From contig VBDR01000059.1 of NCBI GenBank assembly GCA_005882135.1, positions 1-38,611 of the forward strand: a stretch of DNA of 38,611 nucleotides. The letters are read 5' to 3'. Source of the stretch: Chloroflexota bacterium (GTDB taxonomy: Bacteria; Chloroflexota; Dormibacteria; Dormibacterales; Dormibacteraceae). The number at the start of each line of letters is the position of its first letter. Positions within the stretch are counted from its first letter, which is position 1. The notes below the pieces were generated by a model. It was not told the DNA's origin. It ran no database searches and saw only the letters and a list, made by a program, of their open reading frames with translations. The translations under genes and the position numbers were made by a program. Positions 31,510 through 38,611 of the stretch are shown here, piece after piece.

Positions 31510-31585
31510 GGGCCGCTAGCTCAACTGGCAGAGCGCCGTGCTGATAACGCGGAGGTAGGTGGTTCGAGTCCACCGCGGCCCACCA
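31510..31585 (+). tRNA. tRNA-Ile (GAT anticodon), intact attachment-site gene
   Basis: Acceptor GGGCCGC pairs with GCGGCCC; anticodon stem CCGTG pairs with CGCGG around CTGATAA (anticodon GAT); T arm GGTTCGAGTCC; discriminator A; encoded CCA at 31583-31585. Four partial copies of its 3' half follow downstream, from the 3' anticodon-stem strand to CCA, so this gene marks the left end of a tandem integration array. Confidence 0.97.
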
Positions 31586-31710
31586 CAGTTTTCGAAACTC
31601 CCGCCATTTGGGCCCGGATGGTCGCATCTGGACTCACCGATACAGCCAATCGGGCTCACATGGTCGCTGGAACAAGCCGCCCGGCGGCGGCGGATTTCGC
31701 TGCGCGGCCC

Positions 31711-31859
31711 TCTCGAGAAATCTCTTGACTTCGATGCACGCCTTGGCTAGTGTACTAGTGTGCTGATACAGTACTACAGAAGGATTGGCGCACTATGGCC
31801 ATAAGGCTGATCCCGTTCCTGGTTTTCCTGTTTGCCGTTGCCGCCTTGGCGATTGCAGC
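31711..31859 (+). repeat. 149-bp promoter-leader duplication, copy 1
   Basis: This stretch matches 34608-34756 over 149 bp with about 17 mismatches by eye and no gaps. It covers the promoter, the probable GntR operator and the first codons of the membrane-protein gene. In copy 2 the gene body is replaced. Confidence 0.9.
31752..31774. promoter_or_regulatory. Probable GntR (YtrA-type) operator
   Basis: GTACTAGTGT and ATACAGTAC form an imperfect inverted repeat 21 bp before the membrane-protein ATG. A TTGACT -35-like sequence lies just upstream at 31725-31730. YtrA-type regulators bind such GTAC-flanked palindromes near their own operon. Both half-sites are kept in the second copy of this leader, except that GTAC becomes GCAC. 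Confidence 0.5.
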
Positions 31860-32673
31860 GGCCGGCAGACTCCGGAGCGGGCAATCCATTCCACCGGACC
31901 CAAGCCGTGGCCGACGCCGAATCGTGCGCTGGGGCTTCGGGTTGATTGGAATCACTCTGGCCGTAGCCTCTGCTTTCAGTCTCGGTCAGCGAGCAATCTT
32001 CCTCATTGCGCCTCTGGCCATTAGTGGTTATGTCGCTGGTCTATTGCTGGGCGAATTAATGATGCCCAACGCGCAGTCGGGGCCGGTTCGTCGTGTATCG
32101 CTAGACCGGAGGGTCTTCGAACGCTACGTTCAAACCCGTTGGATCTGGGTCTGGAGAGCGGCGGCTGGAGTGGCGGCAGCTGCCGTCGTGGCCGCGGGCC
32201 TGGCAGGTGGAACGGATGGCAGGTCACTGACCATGGCGTGTGCCGATGGGACGCTGAGTGGCGCCGGCCCGTGGCCAGGGTGGTCTTACGGAGGGCCAGC
32301 TCTCACGGCGCTCATACTCGGAGCTTTGCTGGTCGAGCTCTCAATGCGACGGATTGTGGAGAGGCCGCGCCCTGATTCGGACCTGCTCGGTGCCGCCGCC
32401 GATGAAGCCAGCCGTCGGACATCGATGCGACGTGTACTTGCTGCCGGCGTAGCGATTGGTCTGGCGCCCCTTGCGGGAGTTCTCCTATCGGTCGCGATCA
32501 TATTCAGCTTCATCTGCTCTCCACCCCGCACCCTGGCCTGGACCGGGCCACTCGCAGTGACGCTTGCGATCCTTGGCTTTGCGGCTGGCCTTGGCGCCAT
32601 CGCGAGTCTGGCCAGCCTGATCAGGATTGCCGAAACCGTCGGGTCAGTCCCACCAGGCGGGCAACGCGCGTAA
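31795..32673 (+). CDS. Polytopic membrane protein encoded with a GntR regulator
   Basis: 292 residues from ATG 31795. About six membrane segments: residues about 5-25, 45-65, 68-90, 120-140, 165-188 and two near the C-terminus (LAAGVAIGLAPLAGVLLSVA, LAVTLAILGFAAGLGAIASL). No transport or enzyme motif is visible. The stop is 10 nt from the GntR gene. Membrane proteins in this position next to YtrA-type GntR genes are frequent in Actinomycetota-like genomes and may be the regulated target. Composition and codon use look less GC-rich than the chromosome to the left. Confidence 0.75.
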   Translation: MAIRLIPFLVFLFAVAALAIAAAGRLRSGQSIPPDPSRGRRRIVRWGFGLIGITLAVASAFSLGQRAIFLIAPLAISGYVAGLLLGELMMPNAQSGPVRRVSLDRRVFERYVQTRWIWVWRAAAGVAAAAVVAAGLAGGTDGRSLTMACADGTLSGAGPWPGWSYGGPALTALILGALLVELSMRRIVERPRPDSDLLGAAADEASRRTSMRRVLAAGVAIGLAPLAGVLLSVAIIFSFICSPPRTLAWTGPLAVTLAILGFAAGLGAIASLASLIRIAETVGSVPPGGQRA

Positions 32674-32683
32674 GGCTCGGGAC

Positions 32684-33067
32684 GTGGAGCTCACCGTTGA
32701 TATCGTCTCGCCCGTGCCCGTTTACGAGCAGATACGGGCCCAGGTGACCGAGCTGGTCGAAAGCGGAACTTTGCGGACCAACACCCCATTGCCTTCCGTG
32801 CGCCAATTGGCTGCTGACATGCAGATTGCGCCAGGGACCGTCGCGCGCGCATATCGGGAGCTAGAGGCGAGTGGGATGGTCGTTTGCAGCCGATGGGCCG
32901 GCACGCGTGTAGCCGAGGTCGCATTCGTCCCTCGAACCGAACGACGCCAGCGCTTGGACGAGGCGGTTGCTCGCATGGTGTCAGCGGCGCGGCGGCTCGG
33001 TGCCAAGGACGAAGAGATCGAAGCGTCGGTTGGCCGAATCCTGGCGAGGCAGAGTCAAACTCGGTAG
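32684..33067 (+). CDS. GntR-family transcriptional regulator, YtrA-like
   Basis: 127 residues. The winged helix-turn-helix shows PVYEQIRAQVTELVESGTL, PLPSVRQLAADMQIAPGTVA and RAYRELEASGMVVCSRWAGT. The short C-terminal helical tail without a ligand domain is the YtrA subfamily trait. A longer frame upstream would overlap the membrane gene; GTG 32684 is preferred because it gives a normal N-terminus (VELTVDIVSPVPVYEQI). It probably binds the operator at 31752 and could also act on the copy at 34649. Confidence 0.88.
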   Translation: MELTVDIVSPVPVYEQIRAQVTELVESGTLRTNTPLPSVRQLAADMQIAPGTVARAYRELEASGMVVCSRWAGTRVAEVAFVPRTERRQRLDEAVARMVSAARRLGAKDEEIEASVGRILARQSQTR

Positions 33068-33126
33068 GTCGTCATTAGATTCCTAAGTGCGTCCGCGTGT
33101 CGCTCACTCGATCGTCGTCTGACCCT

Positions 33127-33618
33127 TTAGTCCTTGGCCTTCGACATCCAGAAGTCGATCGGATTGTCCAGGGCGAGGGATGCCAATTGTCGGGTGGCAT
33201 TCAGTAACTCATCGACGGCGCTTTCCGGCGTCTGTTGGCGTTCTTGCCGGCTGAAGACGTTTTCCATGCCCTCGTGGTCGATCACGTGCTGGCAATCAAC
33301 GTCGATCGATGTCTCAACGACCCATTCACTCTTGCCAGTTGGCTCCTCGTGTACCCAAGAAGGCCATAGCTCGACCATGAAAGTTGCAGCATGAGACTCG
33401 GCATCACCAGCAGTGACGTAGCCGCTGATGAAGAGCTGACCTGACTCGCTCCATTGCATTTCCAGTCCGGTGGTGTTTCCGACGTGGCCGGCAATCCGTC
33501 CCAACTCGCCGTCGACCTGGTCCAAAACCCGTCGAAGGTATTCGTCTTGGCTCATGCTCAGGGTTCCGAAAACACCCTCGAGCTTCGGGTGGTGCTCGGT
33601 AAGCGAGGACGCCCTCAT
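33127..33618 (-). CDS. Hypothetical protein, cargo of segment 1
   Basis: 163 residues, acidic, no signal peptide or membrane segment. An internal ATG at 33555 (MSQDEYLRRVLDQVDG) is an equally good start. The middle contains a beta-rich stretch ending in TFMVELWPSWVHEEPTGKSE, and the C-terminus is helical. No named family recognised. It is convergent with the GntR gene. Confidence 0.5.
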   Translation of the reverse strand: MRASSLTEHHPKLEGVFGTLSMSQDEYLRRVLDQVDGELGRIAGHVGNTTGLEMQWSESGQLFISGYVTAGDAESHAATFMVELWPSWVHEEPTGKSEWVVETSIDVDCQHVIDHEGMENVFSRQERQQTPESAVDELLNATRQLASLALDNPIDFWMSKAKD

Positions 33619-33680
33619 TCACCAATTGTGCCGAGGTCGCCCGGCCGTCAACTCTTCGTCTTGCGAACTGCCGGGCGGAT

Positions 33681-33795
33681 ACCACATAAAACGGCTGCAG
33701 CGCTCCCTGGTCCTGAGATCAAGTGCGGATTTAGGCGCAGCGCTCGGGCCCCGTTACCGCGGAGGTAGGTGGTTCGAGTCCACCGCGGCCCACCA
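33681..33795 (+). repeat. tRNA-Ile 3'-end copy 2 with conserved left flank
   Basis: The tRNA-derived core (CGCGGAGGTAGGTGGTTCG onward) runs 33758-33795, ending in CCA. Left flank: ACCACATAA at 33681 and TTAGGCGCAGCGCTCGGGCC at 33731-33750. The 5' half of the tRNA is absent, so it cannot make a tRNA. It closes unit 1 (2.2 kb). Confidence 0.9.
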
Positions 33796-33900
33796 CGTAA
33801 TCGCGCCGCGCCGTATCGCATTTTTCTATGTAGCCGAGTTCCTCCGTTGTGGGCCTCTCCAGAGAGGGGCGACATTCCGCGGAGGGCCGGCCCATGACGC

Positions 33901-34260
33901 CTAAATCGAGCGCTCCTCAGTGGTCAGATCACCACCGGCCTCGCCGGTGTTCACCGTGCCTGACGGCTCGATGACGAGGAGTTGGCAGTCGGTCTCTGCG
34001 AAGGGGCAATGCTCAACCCCGCGCGGGACGACGAAGACTTCTCCCGCGTTGAGGCGGACCTCGCGGTCACGCAGTCGGATCGCTAGCTCGCCATCCAAGA
34101 CTAGAAAGAACTCATCGGTCCCCGCGTGCGTGTGCCATGAGAACTCGCCCTTCACCTTTACCACCTGAATCTTGTAGTCGTTGAGGCGGCCGACAATCGC
34201 TGGAGACCAATACTCGTTGACGAGCGCAAGTTTCTCCGCCAGATTGATCTTCTCTTCCAT
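33901..34260 (-). CDS. Cupin domain protein, sole cargo of unit 2
   Basis: 119 residues. Cupin motif 1 is WHTHAGTDEFFLVLDGELAI and motif 2 is GEVFVVPRGVEHCPFAETD, with the His, Glu and His metal ligands in place. Start ATG 34260 is chosen over longer frames because TAGGTT lies 7 nt upstream (34268-34273) and the sequence before it has no family similarity. It is a small mononuclear metal-binding beta-barrel whose substrate is unknown. The gene fills nearly the whole 0.7-kb unit. Confidence 0.83.
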   Translation of the reverse strand: MEEKINLAEKLALVNEYWSPAIVGRLNDYKIQVVKVKGEFSWHTHAGTDEFFLVLDGELAIRLRDREVRLNAGEVFVVPRGVEHCPFAETDCQLLVIEPSGTVNTGEAGGDLTTEERSI

Positions 34261-34267
34261 CACCGAC

Positions 34268-34273
34268 AACCTA
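34268..34273 (-). promoter_or_regulatory. -10 box (TAGGTT) for leaderless cupin cargo gene
   Basis: TAGGTT sits 7 nt before the ATG at 34260. It shows that the cargo uses the same leaderless start design as the host chromosome. Confidence 0.4.
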
Positions 34274-34431
34274 ATGGCGCGCCCTGCACTCGAACACGAA
34301 GACAGCCATGGCTCTTCACCTTCAAACATCATCTCACTGGCTACGCTCTCGCCCCAAACGCGCGAGGCCGCTCTGGCTAACCGCCGCCGCGGGTCATCAA
34401 TGAGTCGGACGATCAAATCGACCAACAGCTC

Positions 34432-34534
34432 GCCCGATAACTCCGGCCACAACGCTCCGGGTCCGCAAGAGTGAGCCACTACGCTCAGGCGGTTCTAACG
34501 CGGAGGTAGGTGGTTCGAGTCCACCGCGGCCCAC
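34432..34534 (+). repeat. tRNA-Ile 3'-end copy 3 with conserved left flank
   Basis: The core runs 34496-34534 and stops one base into CCA (CCCAC then T). Left flank: a diverged CCGATAACTCCGGC at 34433 and GAGCCACTACGCTCAGGCGG at 34473-34492, followed after 6 nt by the core. It closes unit 2 (0.74 kb). Confidence 0.85.
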
Positions 34535-34607
34535 TGCTTCGGTAAACGCAAATCGGCGCAATGGGGAGCCGGAAGGCTGCGACGATGCTGTCCAGGCTCT
34601 CAACCCC

Positions 34608-34756
34608 TCTCGAGAAACCTCTTGACTTCGATGCGCGCCCTGGGTAGTGTACTAGTGTGCTGATACAGCACTACAGGGAGACTGACGCACGATGGCTATA
34701 AGGCTGATCCCCTTCCTGGTTTTCGTATTTGCCGTTGCCGCCGTGGCGATTGCTGC
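34608..34756 (+). repeat. 149-bp promoter-leader duplication, copy 2 (chimera junction)
   Basis: Homologous to 31711-31859, including the operator (34649-34671) and the first codons (ATG 34692, AIRLIPFLVF). The match ends at about 34756, exactly where the TIG-repeat sequence of the opposite strand begins, so the rest of the copied gene has been replaced. Confidence 0.88.
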
Positions 34757-37202
34757 CGGTGATGGTCACCGTCGTGCCGCCTGCGGCCGTGCCGGTGCTG
34801 GGCGAGATAGAGCTGAGCGATGGTATGTAGCTGAAGGTGGCAGACCCGCCTGCCGGTGCTCCGTTGACGGTGGCCGTCACCGTGACCGAACCGATGCCCG
34901 CGGGCGAGCTACCCGTGCAGGTGGTGGAGGAAGAGCAAGACACGCCCGTCGCGGCGGCGCCTCCGAAGGAGAAGGTCGTCCTGTTCGAGGTGGTGTCGAA
35001 GCCTGACCCGGTGAACGTGACCGTGGTGCCACCCGTGGCTGCGCCCGACGTTGGCGAGACCGATGTCAGTGAAGCCGGCGGCAGGTATGTGAAGGTCGCA
35101 GCGCCGGACGCGGCGACTCCGTCCACGATCGCGGTCACCGTGACCGTGCCGCTGCCCGCGGGCGACGTGCCAGTACAGACGGTGGTATTCGAGCAGATGA
35201 CATTGGTAGCGGCCGCGCCGCCAAAGGAGAATGTGGTCTTGCCCGCACTGGGGTCGAACCCGCTGCCCGAGAAAGTCACCGTCGTGGCACCAGCGGCGGG
35301 CCCGGAGGTCGGCGAGATCGAGCTGAGCGTGGCGCAGGTGCTGCATGCCGCCCCGTAGGTGAACTGGTCCGCCGTGCTTGTCGCGCTCGTCCCATCTGCC
35401 GTCGTGACCCTGACGTCGAGGGTCCCACTGCCGCTTGGCGCTGTGGCATTGAGCTGGTTGGCCGAGAGCACCGAGACCGAGGTCGCGGGTGTCGAGCCGA
35501 AGCTCACCGAGGCCGCTGGTGTGAAGTCGGTGCCGGCGACGCTGACCACAGTGCCTACCGAGCCCGAGCTCGGGCTGATTCCACTGACCGTCGGAGCCGC
35601 GAAGGTGAGCCGGGCCGCGTAGGTCGCCCAGTCGCACCCAGCGTCGCCGTTGGCGCTGGACCCGACGGCCGCGAACTCCGCCAAGACCCACACGTCGGTC
35701 GCATTCTGAGGATCGATCGCCGCCCCGCTGTAGTCGCCCCAGCGGCTCGTCTGGTTGGTGCCGAAGCAGGGGTTCATGTCGTATGTCGTGTCGCCGGACC
35801 GGATGGTCTGGCCTGGCGCCACCGTCTGCACGGGTGCGGATGCGAGCTGACCGGTGATGCGAACACCGATGTACTGACTCGAAGACGAGACGTTGTACAC
35901 GACGTACATGTCGGCCCCGCCGTCCATGCCCAAAGCCGGATAGAAGAGACCTCCGCCGGTCATGGCGATGTCGAAATTCTGAGCGACGTTGGGCCCCGCG
36001 GTCGTCACCTGGATCAGTCGCGAGCACGGTCGGGCCGCGCTGTCGGCGGGCGGCAGGCATGCGTCGTTGCCGCCCGTCCACAGCACGCCGTTCTCCCAGA
36101 CCGCGGTCAGGAAACGGTCGTCGTTGGTCGCTATCGAGCCGGCCATGCCCGGCTGATCTGCGCTCGGAGGCGCCGAAGTCGCGGCCAGGCCTGGATCGGA
36201 CTCGTTCCACATGACGTTGCCCTGGAGTGGCGTGCCCGAAATGCGCACAACGCCGATGGCGCCGATGCAGTTTCCGCCCAGCGTGCCGCAATCGGTGCCG
36301 TTGAACACGACGTATTCATCCGAGTTGGACGTGATCTGTACGGCGGGAACGGGACTCGAGCGCGACGAATCCGGTCCCATTGCCGCGCCGTTGACGGGGG
36401 TGGAGCCGGCCACCATCTGTGACTTCTGCAGGACCCACGTCGACTGGCCTTCGAAGAACGCCGCCTGGTAGAAGTCGTTCCACGACAGCACGACCTTGTC
36501 CGAGCTCACACCGATCTTGGGCTGGTCGTGGGTGAGCGTCGAGGAGTTGTCTGCGTTGTACTGGTACCACGTGCCCGTCGCGTCCGTGCTCGCCGAGACA
36601 GCGATCACCACCACGCTGGCGTACGTGGGCGGTATGAAGGCGACGCCCGATGCGAACCATCGCTGGCTGACCTGGTCGAAGAGCACTCGCGGGTCGGAGA
36701 AGCTGTATCCGGTCGGGACCTTGAAGAACAGGTTGAGGTCGAACAGGTTCAGCAGGTGACCCCGCTTGTCCCAGACCGAGCCGCTCGAGTTGACCATCTC
36801 GACCACCTGGCTCGGCCCCGCCGCGATCTGCGCGTCAGGCGGCGTTACGAATTGGTCGGAGCCCAGTGCCAGCTGCTGGTCCAGGCTGGCGCCTCCGAAA
36901 GAGCTCAGGACCTCTTCGGTGGAACCGGTGGTTGCGGTGCTGGAGGTGGTCAGAGTGGTTGCCACCTGTGAGGGGGGTCCCGGACTCGGCTTGTCCGTAA
37001 GCCGCATTACGGGCCTCCGGGCGTGGGCGAGGCCTGCCGGTGAGCGCGCGGGAAGTGCGCGCACAAGAATCGTGCCATTGCGCCCGATCGTGACTGGATG
37101 GAGATTGCCAGGGCCGGTGGCCTGGGCCTGGCCGGCCGGCAAGAATCCAATAGCCAGCGCTGCCAGCGCCGCCACCAACCACAGAGTGACTCGACGCTTC
37201 AT
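34671..37202 (-). CDS. Secreted protein with TIG/IPT repeats, C-terminus truncated
   Basis: 843 residues from ATG 37202. A signal peptide (LWLVAALAALAIGFLPAGQA) is followed by about 480 residues of a beta-rich exported domain with scattered cysteines, then TIG/IPT domains starting at SGISPSSGSVGTVVSVAGTD, SSISPTSGPAAGATTVTFSG, TSVSPTSGAATGGTTVTFTG and SSISPSTGTAAGGTTVTITG. The fourth repeat breaks off a few residues after TVTITGSN; the last 25 or so residues (RHGGNGKYENQEGDQ...) are antisense of the leader duplication. The gene is therefore a fusion or truncated form. Such TIG proteins are surface or matrix proteins; the cell attachment is not visible. Confidence 0.75.
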   Translation of the reverse strand: MKRRVTLWLVAALAALAIGFLPAGQAQATGPGNLHPVTIGRNGTILVRALPARSPAGLAHARRPVMRLTDKPSPGPPSQVATTLTTSSTATTGSTEEVLSSFGGASLDQQLALGSDQFVTPPDAQIAAGPSQVVEMVNSSGSVWDKRGHLLNLFDLNLFFKVPTGYSFSDPRVLFDQVSQRWFASGVAFIPPTYASVVVIAVSASTDATGTWYQYNADNSSTLTHDQPKIGVSSDKVVLSWNDFYQAAFFEGQSTWVLQKSQMVAGSTPVNGAAMGPDSSRSSPVPAVQITSNSDEYVVFNGTDCGTLGGNCIGAIGVVRISGTPLQGNVMWNESDPGLAATSAPPSADQPGMAGSIATNDDRFLTAVWENGVLWTGGNDACLPPADSAARPCSRLIQVTTAGPNVAQNFDIAMTGGGLFYPALGMDGGADMYVVYNVSSSSQYIGVRITGQLASAPVQTVAPGQTIRSGDTTYDMNPCFGTNQTSRWGDYSGAAIDPQNATDVWVLAEFAAVGSSANGDAGCDWATYAARLTFAAPTVSGISPSSGSVGTVVSVAGTDFTPAASVSFGSTPATSVSVLSANQLNATAPSGSGTLDVRVTTADGTSATSTADQFTYGAACSTCATLSSISPTSGPAAGATTVTFSGSGFDPSAGKTTFSFGGAAATNVICSNTTVCTGTSPAGSGTVTVTAIVDGVAASGAATFTYLPPASLTSVSPTSGAATGGTTVTFTGSGFDTTSNRTTFSFGGAAATGVSCSSSTTCTGSSPAGIGSVTVTATVNGAPAGGSATFSYIPSLSSISPSTGTAAGGTTVTITGSNRHGGNGKYENQEGDQPYSHRASVSL
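34692..34756 (+). pseudogene. Truncated 5' end of a segment-1-type membrane protein gene
   Basis: The first 21 codons match those at 31795 (about 89% at DNA level), after which the frame runs into antisense TIG sequence until 35006. The promoter and operator upstream are intact, but the product would be meaningless. It is a remnant of a second membrane-protein/GntR unit. Confidence 0.75.
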
Positions 37203-37369
37203 GCATCCCCCACGTCCGTCCGAGCCGGCCGCGAACGGGGCCATGATATGCGGTTCGACGCAGTTTGGCCGCGAGTCATGCGCAAGGGAAACGAGTGGGT
37301 GGTACCGCGCTTGACGGTGTCGCCGCCTTACTCGTATCGAAACCTAGATCGAGCGATGCCAGTGCGCGC

Positions 37370-37485
37370 ACCACATAACTCGGCGCATGACGCTCACCTG
37401 ATCCGAGATCGAAAGCCGGCGTTAGCACAGCGCTCAGGCCGATCTAGGGCGGAGGTAGGTGGTTCGAGTCCACCGCGGCCCACCA
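37370..37485 (+). repeat. tRNA-Ile 3'-end copy 4 with conserved left flank
   Basis: The core runs 37449-37485 to CCA. Left flank: ACCACATAACTCGGC at 37370 and TTAGCACAGCGCTCAGGCCG at 37422-37441, 7 nt before the core. It closes the TIG unit (2.95 kb). The anticodon-stem end reads CTAGGGCGG rather than CTAACGCGG. Confidence 0.9.
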
Positions 37486-37613
37486 CGCCTCTGGATTTGC
37501 TCTCGCACCCAATGTTTGACACGTTGGCTGCAGGAAGCCAGACTCAGCCAATCCCTCGACCGGTGCAGGAGGAGGCGCAGTGACGACCCGCGCTGTTCTC
37601 TGAACGAGAGGAC

Positions 37614-37931
37614 GTGACTCTAGCGAATCCTTTCGGTCCGGCCGTGCGTGGATCGGAAGAAGTCTCCGGAGCCCTGGACTACGCCTCATCTCGGTTCAGG
37701 GATGGCAACGTGAGCTTCGAAAGAATCGCGATCTATGCGAGCCCGGATCTGGCAACGATTCTCGAACTGGAGCGATGGAACGCCAAGGTTGGCGGCAGCG
37801 AGGACCTCGCCCCGTTCGACCTTCGCGTGACGAGCACCTTTCGGCGCGAGGGTAATGCTTGGAAACTGGTGCACCGACACGCAGATCCGATAACCACGCG
37901 CGATGCCCGAGGTCCTTTGCGCGGGTCTTAG
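37614..37931 (+). pseudogene. SnoaL-like / DUF4440 protein, N-terminally truncated
   Basis: 105 residues from GTG 37614. The NTF2-fold C-terminal part is well kept: GNVSFERIAIYASPDLATIL, FDLRVTSTFRREGNAWKLVH, then RHADPI. The family is normally about 130-140 residues and begins some 30 residues earlier; the open frame here extends only to a TGA at 37581 with readable ...LFSERED ahead of VTLANPFGPAV. The start of the gene is missing between the stop and the tRNA copy at 37485. Confidence 0.6.
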
Positions 37932-38008
37932 CGACTGCTGGTGCGATGCCCGTCACCAAACTGTGAGGGCAGCCGCAGGCGCTCGACGGGTTTCTGCCTT
38001 TTGGCCGC

Positions 38009-38113
38009 ACCACATAACTCGCCGGCCCACGCTCGGACTCCCACTCTCGTTAGCACAGCACTCAGCCCGGCCTAACGCGGAGGTAGGTGGTTCGAGTCCA
38101 CCGCGGCCCACCA
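38009..38113 (+). repeat. tRNA-Ile 3'-end copy 5 with conserved left flank
   Basis: The core runs 38073-38113 to CCA and includes TAACGCGG. Left flank: ACCACATAACTCGCC at 38009 and TTAGCACAGCACTCAGCCCG at 38050-38069, 3-6 nt before the core. It closes unit 4 (0.63 kb). It is the right-most copy visible and may be the original chromosomal tRNA end. Confidence 0.9.
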
Positions 38114-38205
38114 ACGCTATTCAGGTCATTGTTGGATGCCTCCTGAGCGGCCCTGTACCGCCCCAGAATTTCTCTCCGCAGAAGCCACCCCGTCCTAGGT
38201 GTCAA

Positions 38206-38293
38206 CGCCAGTCTCAAACTCCCCAGTTCTCGCCGGTCTGAAATTCCCCATCTCAGGACCGATTTCGTCTGAGCGCCGGTCTCAAATTCCCAC
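38206..38293. repeat. Three 20-bp IS-end repeats
   Basis: Units at 38206-38225, 38231-38250 and 38274-38293 share GTCTSAAAYTCCC. The last overlaps the end of the istB fragment. Spacing is 25 and 43 bp. Confidence 0.7.
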
Positions 38294-38461
38294 TTGAGGC
38301 GCTGGCGTGACCAGGGTGCTGGTGGGCATGCTGAAGACGCCGGCACGCTTTATGTCTTTGAGCCGGTAGCTGTCACCGCGGATGTTGACCGTGGTCGAGT
38401 AATGGAGCAGGCGGTTGAGTTGGCGGTTAATCCCCGCGTTCGTCGTCTCCACATCGAACCA
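38282..38461 (-). pseudogene. IstB-like transposition helper ATPase, C-terminal fragment
   Basis: The minus-strand frame ending at 38282 reads NRLLHYSTTVNIRGDSYRLK followed by DIKRAG, a close match to the C-terminal signature of IS21 IstB proteins (RLLHHS...RGESYRLK). Upstream of this the reading has no IstB-like sequence and is cut by a stop at 38525-38527, so the helper protein is incomplete. Confidence 0.55.
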
Positions 38462-38524
38462 GCTGGAGCTCGGCCCATGCCAGTCGTCCGAAACATTCCG
38501 CCAGTCCTCCCACCCTGTTGGGCT

Positions 38525-38611
38525 TTAGTCCTGGACATAGGGCGGTATGCGGATTGCCGCTTCCTTCTTGACGGAGTACACCAACAACGGAGTCAGGCTG
38601 AATGTTCCAGC
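38525..38611 (-). CDS. Unidentified reading frame running off the window
   Basis: The minus-strand frame is open from the window edge to a TAA at 38525 (28 codons, ending AAIRIPPYVQD). It is in the same frame as the istB fragment to its left, separated by that stop. No family recognised from this little sequence. Confidence 0.25.
   Translation of the reverse strand, partial: AGTFSLTPLLVYSVKKEAAIRIPPYVQD

Follow-up and report, generated by a model that had tools for sequence, protein, structure and literature searches.

A probable site-specific gene-cassette array anchored on tRNA-Ile(GAT) in an uncultured Chloroflexota bacterium

The stretch analysed here, referred to as the window, is the 38,611 nt contig VBDR01000059.1 (positions 1 to 38,611) of the Chloroflexota assembly GCA_005882135.1, family Dormibacteraceae. 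Behind its tRNA-Ile(GAT) gene lies a row of short DNA units, each closed by a copy of the 3' half of that tRNA. We consider it quite probable that this row is a site-specific gene-cassette array anchored on the tRNA, in which integrase-less units were moved in trans into the tRNA and its copies. The evidence for this reading is a common composite site, gain and loss of units at exact borders, sharing of units among species and genera, a delimited crossover zone, and an arm motif found beside an integrase. In our numbering of genomes (G) and contigs (C) the window is contig C8 of G000, a genome of 2.7 Mb in 91 contigs that is 85% complete.

In the proposed mechanism a unit would be a short piece of DNA, typically 0.6-4.4 kb with one or two ordinary genes, which starts right after the CCA end of the tRNA and closes in a composite site, in which a left arm some 75 nt long precedes the tRNA 3' half. 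Strand exchange by a tyrosine recombinase would take place in the anticodon stem, on its 3' strand, and would involve the site on an incoming or excised unit together with either the tRNA or an older copy; insertion at the tRNA gene would rebuild the tRNA. Nearly all units would be without a recombinase, which would act in trans; the best candidate is a 312-aa integrase in G028, together with a fragment in G026 that is cut by the contig end. We infer free unit circles, catalysis by the G028 integrase and a vehicle between cells.

Both ARAGORN and BLAST agree with the original prediction of an intact tRNA-Ile(GAT) gene followed on the same strand by four copies of its 3' half. BLAST within the window's own genome places these copies at 33755-33796 (98%), 34496-34534 (100%), 37449-37486 (100%) and 38073-38113 (100%), all on the + strand, with copy-to-copy spacings of 2210, 741, 2949 and 628 bp, matching the earlier estimates of 2.2, 0.74, 2.95 and 0.63 kb. 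Four exact matches of 38-41 nt on one strand inside 6.6 kb are far beyond chance. As had been claimed, the tRNA-shared block begins at or just before the 3' anticodon-stem strand, at about T36-C39 (the last anticodon base or the start of that strand). The claimed CCA end is not kept by the copy at 34496, which terminates in CTG, and in the copies at 33758 and 37449 the first bases of the block deviate from the tRNA. Unit borders coincide with the tRNA copies at the nucleotide level, which bears out the proposed serial array of small integrated units, and the absence of a PF00589 match on contig C8 accords with the claim that the window holds no recombinase of its own. The features of the locus, including open reading frames (ORFs), are as follows.

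31510-31585, + strand: intact tRNA-Ile(GAT), taken as the rebuilt attB or entry site (ARAGORN; upstream flank conserved in the compared relatives)
31586-33795, + strand: unit 1, 2210 bp including its own 3' copy; pieces 81-97% identical in G001, G002 and G009
31795-32673, + strand: unit 1 ORF of 292 aa, without a Pfam match
32627-33067, + strand: unit 1 ORF, GntR-type regulator
33127-33618, - strand: unit 1 ORF of 163 aa, without a Pfam match
33678-33795, + strand: closing composite site of unit 1, left arm ~33678-33753 and tRNA 3' copy ~33754-33795; profile score 87.4
33796-34536, + strand: unit 2, 741 bp
33901-34260, - strand: unit 2 cupin gene (PF07883, E 7e-16)
34424-34536, + strand: closing composite site of unit 2, tRNA part ~34495-34536, ending in CTG; profile score 92.4
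34537-37485, + strand: unit 3, 2949 bp; left end 89% identical to G001
34605-34756: truncated relative of the unit 1 left end, within unit 3
34671-37244, - strand: unit 3 large IPT/TIG-repeat ORF (PF01833, E 4e-39)
37364-37485, + strand: closing composite site of unit 3; profile score 91.3
37486-38113, + strand: unit 4, 628 bp
37614-37931, + strand: unit 4 SnoaL-like ORF (PF13474, E 5e-8)
37998-38113, + strand: closing composite site of unit 4; profile score 103.2, the best in the window (profile R1, E 9.8e-28)
38114-38611, + strand: start of a further, unfinished segment, of which 38422-38611 is 98% identical to G001:C99

Since the contig stops at position 38611, the array of the window is cut off. 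Two more tRNA-Ile fragments are located in the same genome (C68:6701-6737 and C21:134-157). Contig C21 was considered as the far end of the window array and dropped, because over 5.65 kb it matches G007 at 99.2%, against 79-81% for the tRNA flank; it is probably misbinned. The left ends of units 1 and 3 (31708-31859 and 34605-34756) are 89% identical over 152 bp, start codon included. Unit 3 continues from this unit-1-like left end into the unrelated TIG-repeat gene, which indicates that units can be mosaics.

The original prediction took the shared sequence to be the end of the tRNA. The tRNA end is indeed common to all sites, but this description is incomplete, since the 66-nt repeat family of the window extends 5' past the tRNA-derived part and a conserved left arm, about 75 nt long, stands in front of each tRNA copy and forms a composite site with it. 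The arm was delineated in an alignment of 40 sites from the window's genus that were picked for having an arm. It carries CACATAAC/TGATAAC at its far end, CGCTC in the middle and GCACAGCGCTCAG close to the core, and occurs in two main lengths about 11 nt apart. RNAalifold found six pairs in the alignment, all within the tRNA part and without covariation or compensatory change; an attC-like fold was thus not found and the composite site is not attC-like. On the other side of the core, the first 30 nt after the CCA include TAACGCGAA in 14 of the 115 distinct ends of Ile type and in 4 of 5000 control windows. GAAYTC-like motifs were also noted there, in 15 of 29 ends of Asn type, 11 of 115 of Ile type and 120 of 5000 controls. 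Classes of right arm therefore seem to exist.

Relatives compared at the tRNA-Ile locus differ in the number, kind and order of units, as had been anticipated for mobile units. In the sister genome G001 unit 1 is followed immediately by the beginning of unit 3, whereas the window has the 741-bp cupin unit 2 at this point, its borders falling precisely at the two site halves. A site followed by the beginning of unit 3 is a join seen in both genomes. Unit 2 recurs in G009 at 97-98% identity, as 247-bp and 423-bp pieces that lie on two contig ends and are presumed to be adjacent; the units flanking it there are different on both sides. The unit directly behind the tRNA in G020 stands after two extra units in G031, a member of another genus (93.8%). 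In the comparisons of G010 with G008 and of G001 with G012 an additional unit separates the tRNA from the segment that follows, and the match past it is short (about 50-85 nt). The overlap at gain or loss joins is 41-43 nt (G010/G008, G001/G012 and G031/G020). Additionally, G009 contains a unit of about 1 kb at a damaged copy, within a stretch that is continuous in G001. Every such difference could be either a gain in one genome or a loss in the other. The tRNA had been described as the fixed entry site; units do lie behind it, yet it is not the sole entry, as unit 2 relative to G001 and the 1-kb unit of G009 are gained or lost at internal copies.

Stretches of at least 200 bp common to closed units and other genomes number 59, with identities of 65.5-97.6%, and 16 of them are at 90% or more. 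As a background we used the Xer region, whose identity is 76.1-84.4% in the 16 genome pairs compared, so that the background is one gene region plus a few flanks. Common stretch and Xer identities are 94.0 versus 76.1 for G020/G031, 93.2 versus 76.4 for G009/G028, 97-98 versus 81.7 for the window and G009, and 96.1 versus 84.4 for G004/G007. The best stretches thus stand about 9-18 points above the Xer region, which points to recent exchange for these; the remainder give no such sign.

One join that helps to locate the crossover is between G102:C30 and G009:C95, which agree over 3673 bp (99.86% identity) as far as the first core bases and then continue into different units. The end of the G102:C30 unit is nearly identical, for about 170 nt, to the end of the first unit of G001. 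Since the G102/G009 core leaves that of G001 after the tenth base (a G-to-A variant), the switch falls within TAACGCGGAG, unless a later mutation produced the difference. A false assembler join at the 41-nt repeat would hardly explain this switch, as a longer shared word would be needed. At the position-47 variant of the tRNA, copies match their host in 44 of 48 cases for T-type hosts and 6 of 7 for C-type hosts (Fisher p 4.7e-5, with the kinship of copies ignored). Just before the core ACCG is found in 39 of 95 copies and AACG in 28; the tRNA reads AACG, and the ACCG in its place indicates exchange 3' of position 38. Together with the G102 join, the host-variant and ACCG patterns put the exchange of strands near positions 39-45, on the 3' strand of the anticodon stem, as read from these sequence comparisons. 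Tyrosine integrases often use the 3' anticodon-stem region of tRNA genes.

The 312-aa integrase of G028:C1 lies 168 bp downstream of the tRNA-Ile, in the first unit of an array, and is the sole such PF00589 match in the family. It contains Phage_integrase and SAM-like domains, and XerD (1a0p) ranks highest of those of its four PDB matches that are named as recombinases. In G026 the apparent start of a homologue is found at the same place, after which the contig ends, while G027 carries a homologue (about 40%) at another location, with no site in the stretch examined. A matrix built from 33 cargo left arms, none from G026 or G028, ranked the tRNA-integrase intervals of these two genomes first and second of 112 ends (21.8 and 17.2; control 99th percentile 9.1). 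This arm motif links the putative recombinase to the cargo sites, non-exclusively. Within the window's genus PF00589 matches are mostly one Xer-like gene per genome, and some genomes hold others near other tRNAs. These other integrases were rejected as candidates, as they adjoin tRNA-Asn, -Gly, -Thr or -Tyr, or no tRNA in the stretches examined. Integrase relatives in IMG/VR (6 loci) were set aside as well, the four scanned having no tRNA in the scanned stretches. Two further arrangements were noted: G030:C12 carries a site and another integrase on one contig, and G006:C90 (3.8 kb) has three tyrosine recombinase genes in a row.

The distribution of the composite site was followed with R1, a sequence-only profile built from the 40 arm-bearing sites, a match being counted by hand as arm-bearing when its profile row started at model position 20 or lower. 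At least 75 arm-bearing sites were found in at least 21 of 42 genomes of the order, covering at least 6 of 14 genera. Genomes without copies do exist among the relatives: in G006, G018, G024, G025, G040 and G041, all at least 92% complete, the tRNA-Ile gene is the sole profile match among the matches listed, and the contig runs 1.5-15 kb past it (G006 has 9% contamination). G037 was dropped from this set because ARAGORN sees no tRNA there, and G012, G026 and G032, whose contigs stop at most 217 bp from the tRNA, were left out, as was G039. No clean empty site, with the distal flank directly after the tRNA, was found within the genus; the conserved distal block begins about 8, 12 and 24 kb from the tRNA in G006, G007 and G016.

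Outside the order 1 of 68 genomes of the class matches the profile at E 1e-9, namely G102 from another family. We did not count it as spread beyond the order, because two of its contigs match G009 contigs at 99.86 and 99.93% identity and are probably misbinned copies from G009. The G102 array contigs (C30, C110 and C136) still offer a second strain for comparison. Searching GTDB contigs with an exact pattern gave three records, PNAG01000025.1 (Ca. Dormiibacterota palsa_840), VBEG01000052.1 (Chloroflexi CF_20) and VBFH01000057.1 (Chloroflexi CF_47), probably corresponding to G028:C1, G001:C99 and G009:C13. Sites off the tRNA-Ile contig are present in well-assembled genomes, on C1, C9, C10, C12, C18 and C33 of G030 and on C14, C15 and C29 of G028; these may be broken-off array pieces or dispersed units.

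The fetched loci contain 52 closed units between successive copies, from 18 genomes, with lengths of 150-7782 bp and a median of 1653 bp. Four come from G102 and were omitted from the gene counts, leaving 48 units, of which 42 span 600-4400 bp. A simple gene caller, which overlooks some genes (two of unit 1, for example), found 72 genes in them, mostly one or two per unit and oriented 36 versus 36. Pfam matches of the 71 scanned genes include, among the 25 of 78 families listed, SnoaL, cupins, nitronate and flavin monooxygenases, hydrolases, methyltransferases, regulators and RCC1 repeat proteins. PADLOC gave 11 families on unit genes, mostly with a single member. The same 71 genes matched 24 PHROGs families, two of them integrase and two transposase, while a 'tail protein' family matches the three RCC1-repeat proteins; capsid, portal and terminase are absent from these 24. 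Conjugation families are absent from the 25 of 78 Pfam families listed, and no search aimed at relaxase or a type IV secretion system was made. An integrase profile match occurs in one of the 52 closed units, in G028, and in none from the window's genus. With respect to a transfer vehicle, array DNA had no match among phage records, and the exact tRNA core gave 0 matches to viruses in IMG/VR. Eight plasmid records matched array DNA at 60-80% identity with most of the query uncovered, the best ones through a cupin gene.

A second platform is found at tRNA-Asn(GTT), whose 3'-half copies in the window's genus have their own conserved left arm of about 85 nt. The stretches fetched hold 22 copies, 7 intact tRNAs and 7 closed units of 1.5-16 kb, with array loci such as G001:C89, G007:C102 and G011:C274. 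Integrases lie downstream of tRNA-Asn on G000:C40 in the window's own genome (107 bp), on G009:C84 (4.8 kb) and on G006:C81 (2.5 kb). At G016:C15:36233-36593 an Ile-type site lies about 175 bp behind the tRNA-Asn. Ile-type composite sites between or behind tRNA-Asn copies were noted at G016:C15, L033 and G001:C84, and G001 and G009 share an 857-bp stretch with such a site at 97% identity. Units belonging to one platform may have inserted into the other.

Several observations weigh against a cassette array served in trans. The genomes compared appear to be draft metagenome-assembled genomes. Of the common stretches 43 of 59 are below 90% identity, down to 65.5%. For the G020/G031 pair the closing site of the common unit was not found in G031 and the flanks give no blastn match whatever. 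At the second tRNA variant, position 49, agreement of copies with their host is weaker and uneven (39 of 41 and 4 of 11; p 0.014). The G026 homologue of the integrase is a 43-aa fragment (44%, E 0.003), the third arm-matrix score (16.6, a G001 cargo end) is near the second, and 18 of 112 ends exceed the 95th percentile of the control. In the 17 genomes of the window's genus there is no clear homologue of the G028 integrase beyond general tyrosine-recombinase similarity (best E 1.2e-17, 34%). PF00589 matches number one each in G016 and G005 and none in G012 and G014; in G016, G005 and G014, which are 94-95% complete, the acting recombinase is missing, lost or of another kind.

Decay is apparent in some copies and arms. 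Such decay would be expected if the row were a graveyard of full-size, integrase-bearing, tRNA-targeted islands that inserted serially, eroded to stubs and are immobile today, and so would the lack of integrase matches in the closed units of the genus, the mosaic unit 3 with its truncated left end and the many old common stretches. We regard this history as unlikely, since stubs should not share borders, and small units with the same borders recur in other species and genera at 93-98%, while the nearly identical contigs G102:C30 and G009:C95 differ by a unit at the core. Alternatively, a few founder insertions could have been site-specific and units later swapped by homologous recombination, at the short repeats of the tRNA end and at the arms. 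Copies and arms do supply 41 to about 110 nt of common sequence, and gain or loss at internal copies as well as at the tRNA fits such a process, but one recent join maps to a 10-nt interval inside the anticodon-stem part, the arms of neighbouring units are unlike in sequence and copies mostly take the 3' part of their host's tRNA, so that we give this explanation little credence too.

That short-read assemblers fused unrelated contigs at the 41-nt repeat, or that binning did so, is a concern with these apparent metagenome-assembled genomes, several of whose contigs end in arrays and two sets of whose contigs are probably misbinned. Against an artefact stand the unit 3 join common to the window and G001, the linkage of arm and core variants across the G102/G009 join and a left arm conserved independently of the tRNA repeat, and we consider it very improbable. 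An actual integron, with IntI, attC sites and the tRNA as attI, would likewise have cassettes of gene size that carry one site apiece, line up behind a fixed site and are common to several species. Such an integron is extremely improbable given that no conserved fold or covariation is found outside the tRNA-part pairs, that gene orientation is balanced and that the G028 integrase matches the Phage_integrase and SAM-like families.

A tRNA-anchored cassette array moved in trans has relatives among described systems. Tycheposons are tRNA-bordered cargo elements moved by their own tyrosine recombinase. In the available text of PMC10872708 those of Prochlorococcus are transposons of 4-200 kb; unlike them, the closed units here are 0.15-7.8 kb, 51 of 52 are without an integrase match and there is none on the window contig. 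The available text on the ssrA islands of Dehalococcoides (PMC3146451) describes insertion in the T-loop of the transfer-messenger RNA by a CcrB-like serine recombinase and a phage-genome size range, with 20-bp 3'-end copies and a conserved 15-bp motif upstream; module-less islands are called possible cis-mobilizable elements. Similar to the present array, these are tandem islands behind one RNA gene in Chloroflexota, bordered by its 3'-end copies, but gene-sized units swapped between genera are not part of that text. Additive flexible genomic islands, with a tRNA target for added cassettes and direct repeats of the tRNA end as here, are known from Alteromonas (PMC4119200), Ca. Actinomarinales (PMC7771536) and Ca. 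Methylopumilus (PMC10872708). In the portions available, recurring 20-bp tRNA-Lys ends and islands of 330 bp to 42 kb are given for Methylopumilus, and transfer between genera at about 75% similarity for Actinomarinales, as against up to 93-94% identity for stretches common to different genera in the present system. Those portions contain no composite left-arm site, crossover map or assigned recombinase.

Among the titles and abstract starts listed, with subscription journals mostly outside them, we found no published description of this system. We would call tRNA-gated additive islands already known, and the gene-sized units, the one composite site, the cross-genus sharing and the candidate trans-acting integrase new. 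Integrons are the textbook route by which bacteria collect single genes as cassettes. As in integrons (PMC4119200, available text), there is here a row of exchangeable small cassettes with a site on each behind a fixed entry; unlike integrons, there is no folded attC and no orientation bias, the entry is a tRNA and an integrase is usually not found. An integron-like outcome has apparently been reached by way of a different site, an arm-bearing tRNA, and in most cases with no resident integrase. We tentatively suggest, at slightly less than an even chance, that this order of uncultured soil Chloroflexota/Dormiibacterota has a second, independently evolved integron-like system, in which gene-sized cassettes with one composite site circulate between genera and stand in rows behind tRNAs, with a tyrosine integrase acting in trans, the tRNA serving as the common docking site, and tRNA-Ile and tRNA-Asn as parallel platforms. 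If this is true, it would mean a shared pool of metabolic genes for uncultured soil bacteria, would account for their variable islands and would test the minimum size of an integrase-dependent mobile unit. Because the site profile is searchable in any genome, the size, content and traffic of this gene pool may be measured.

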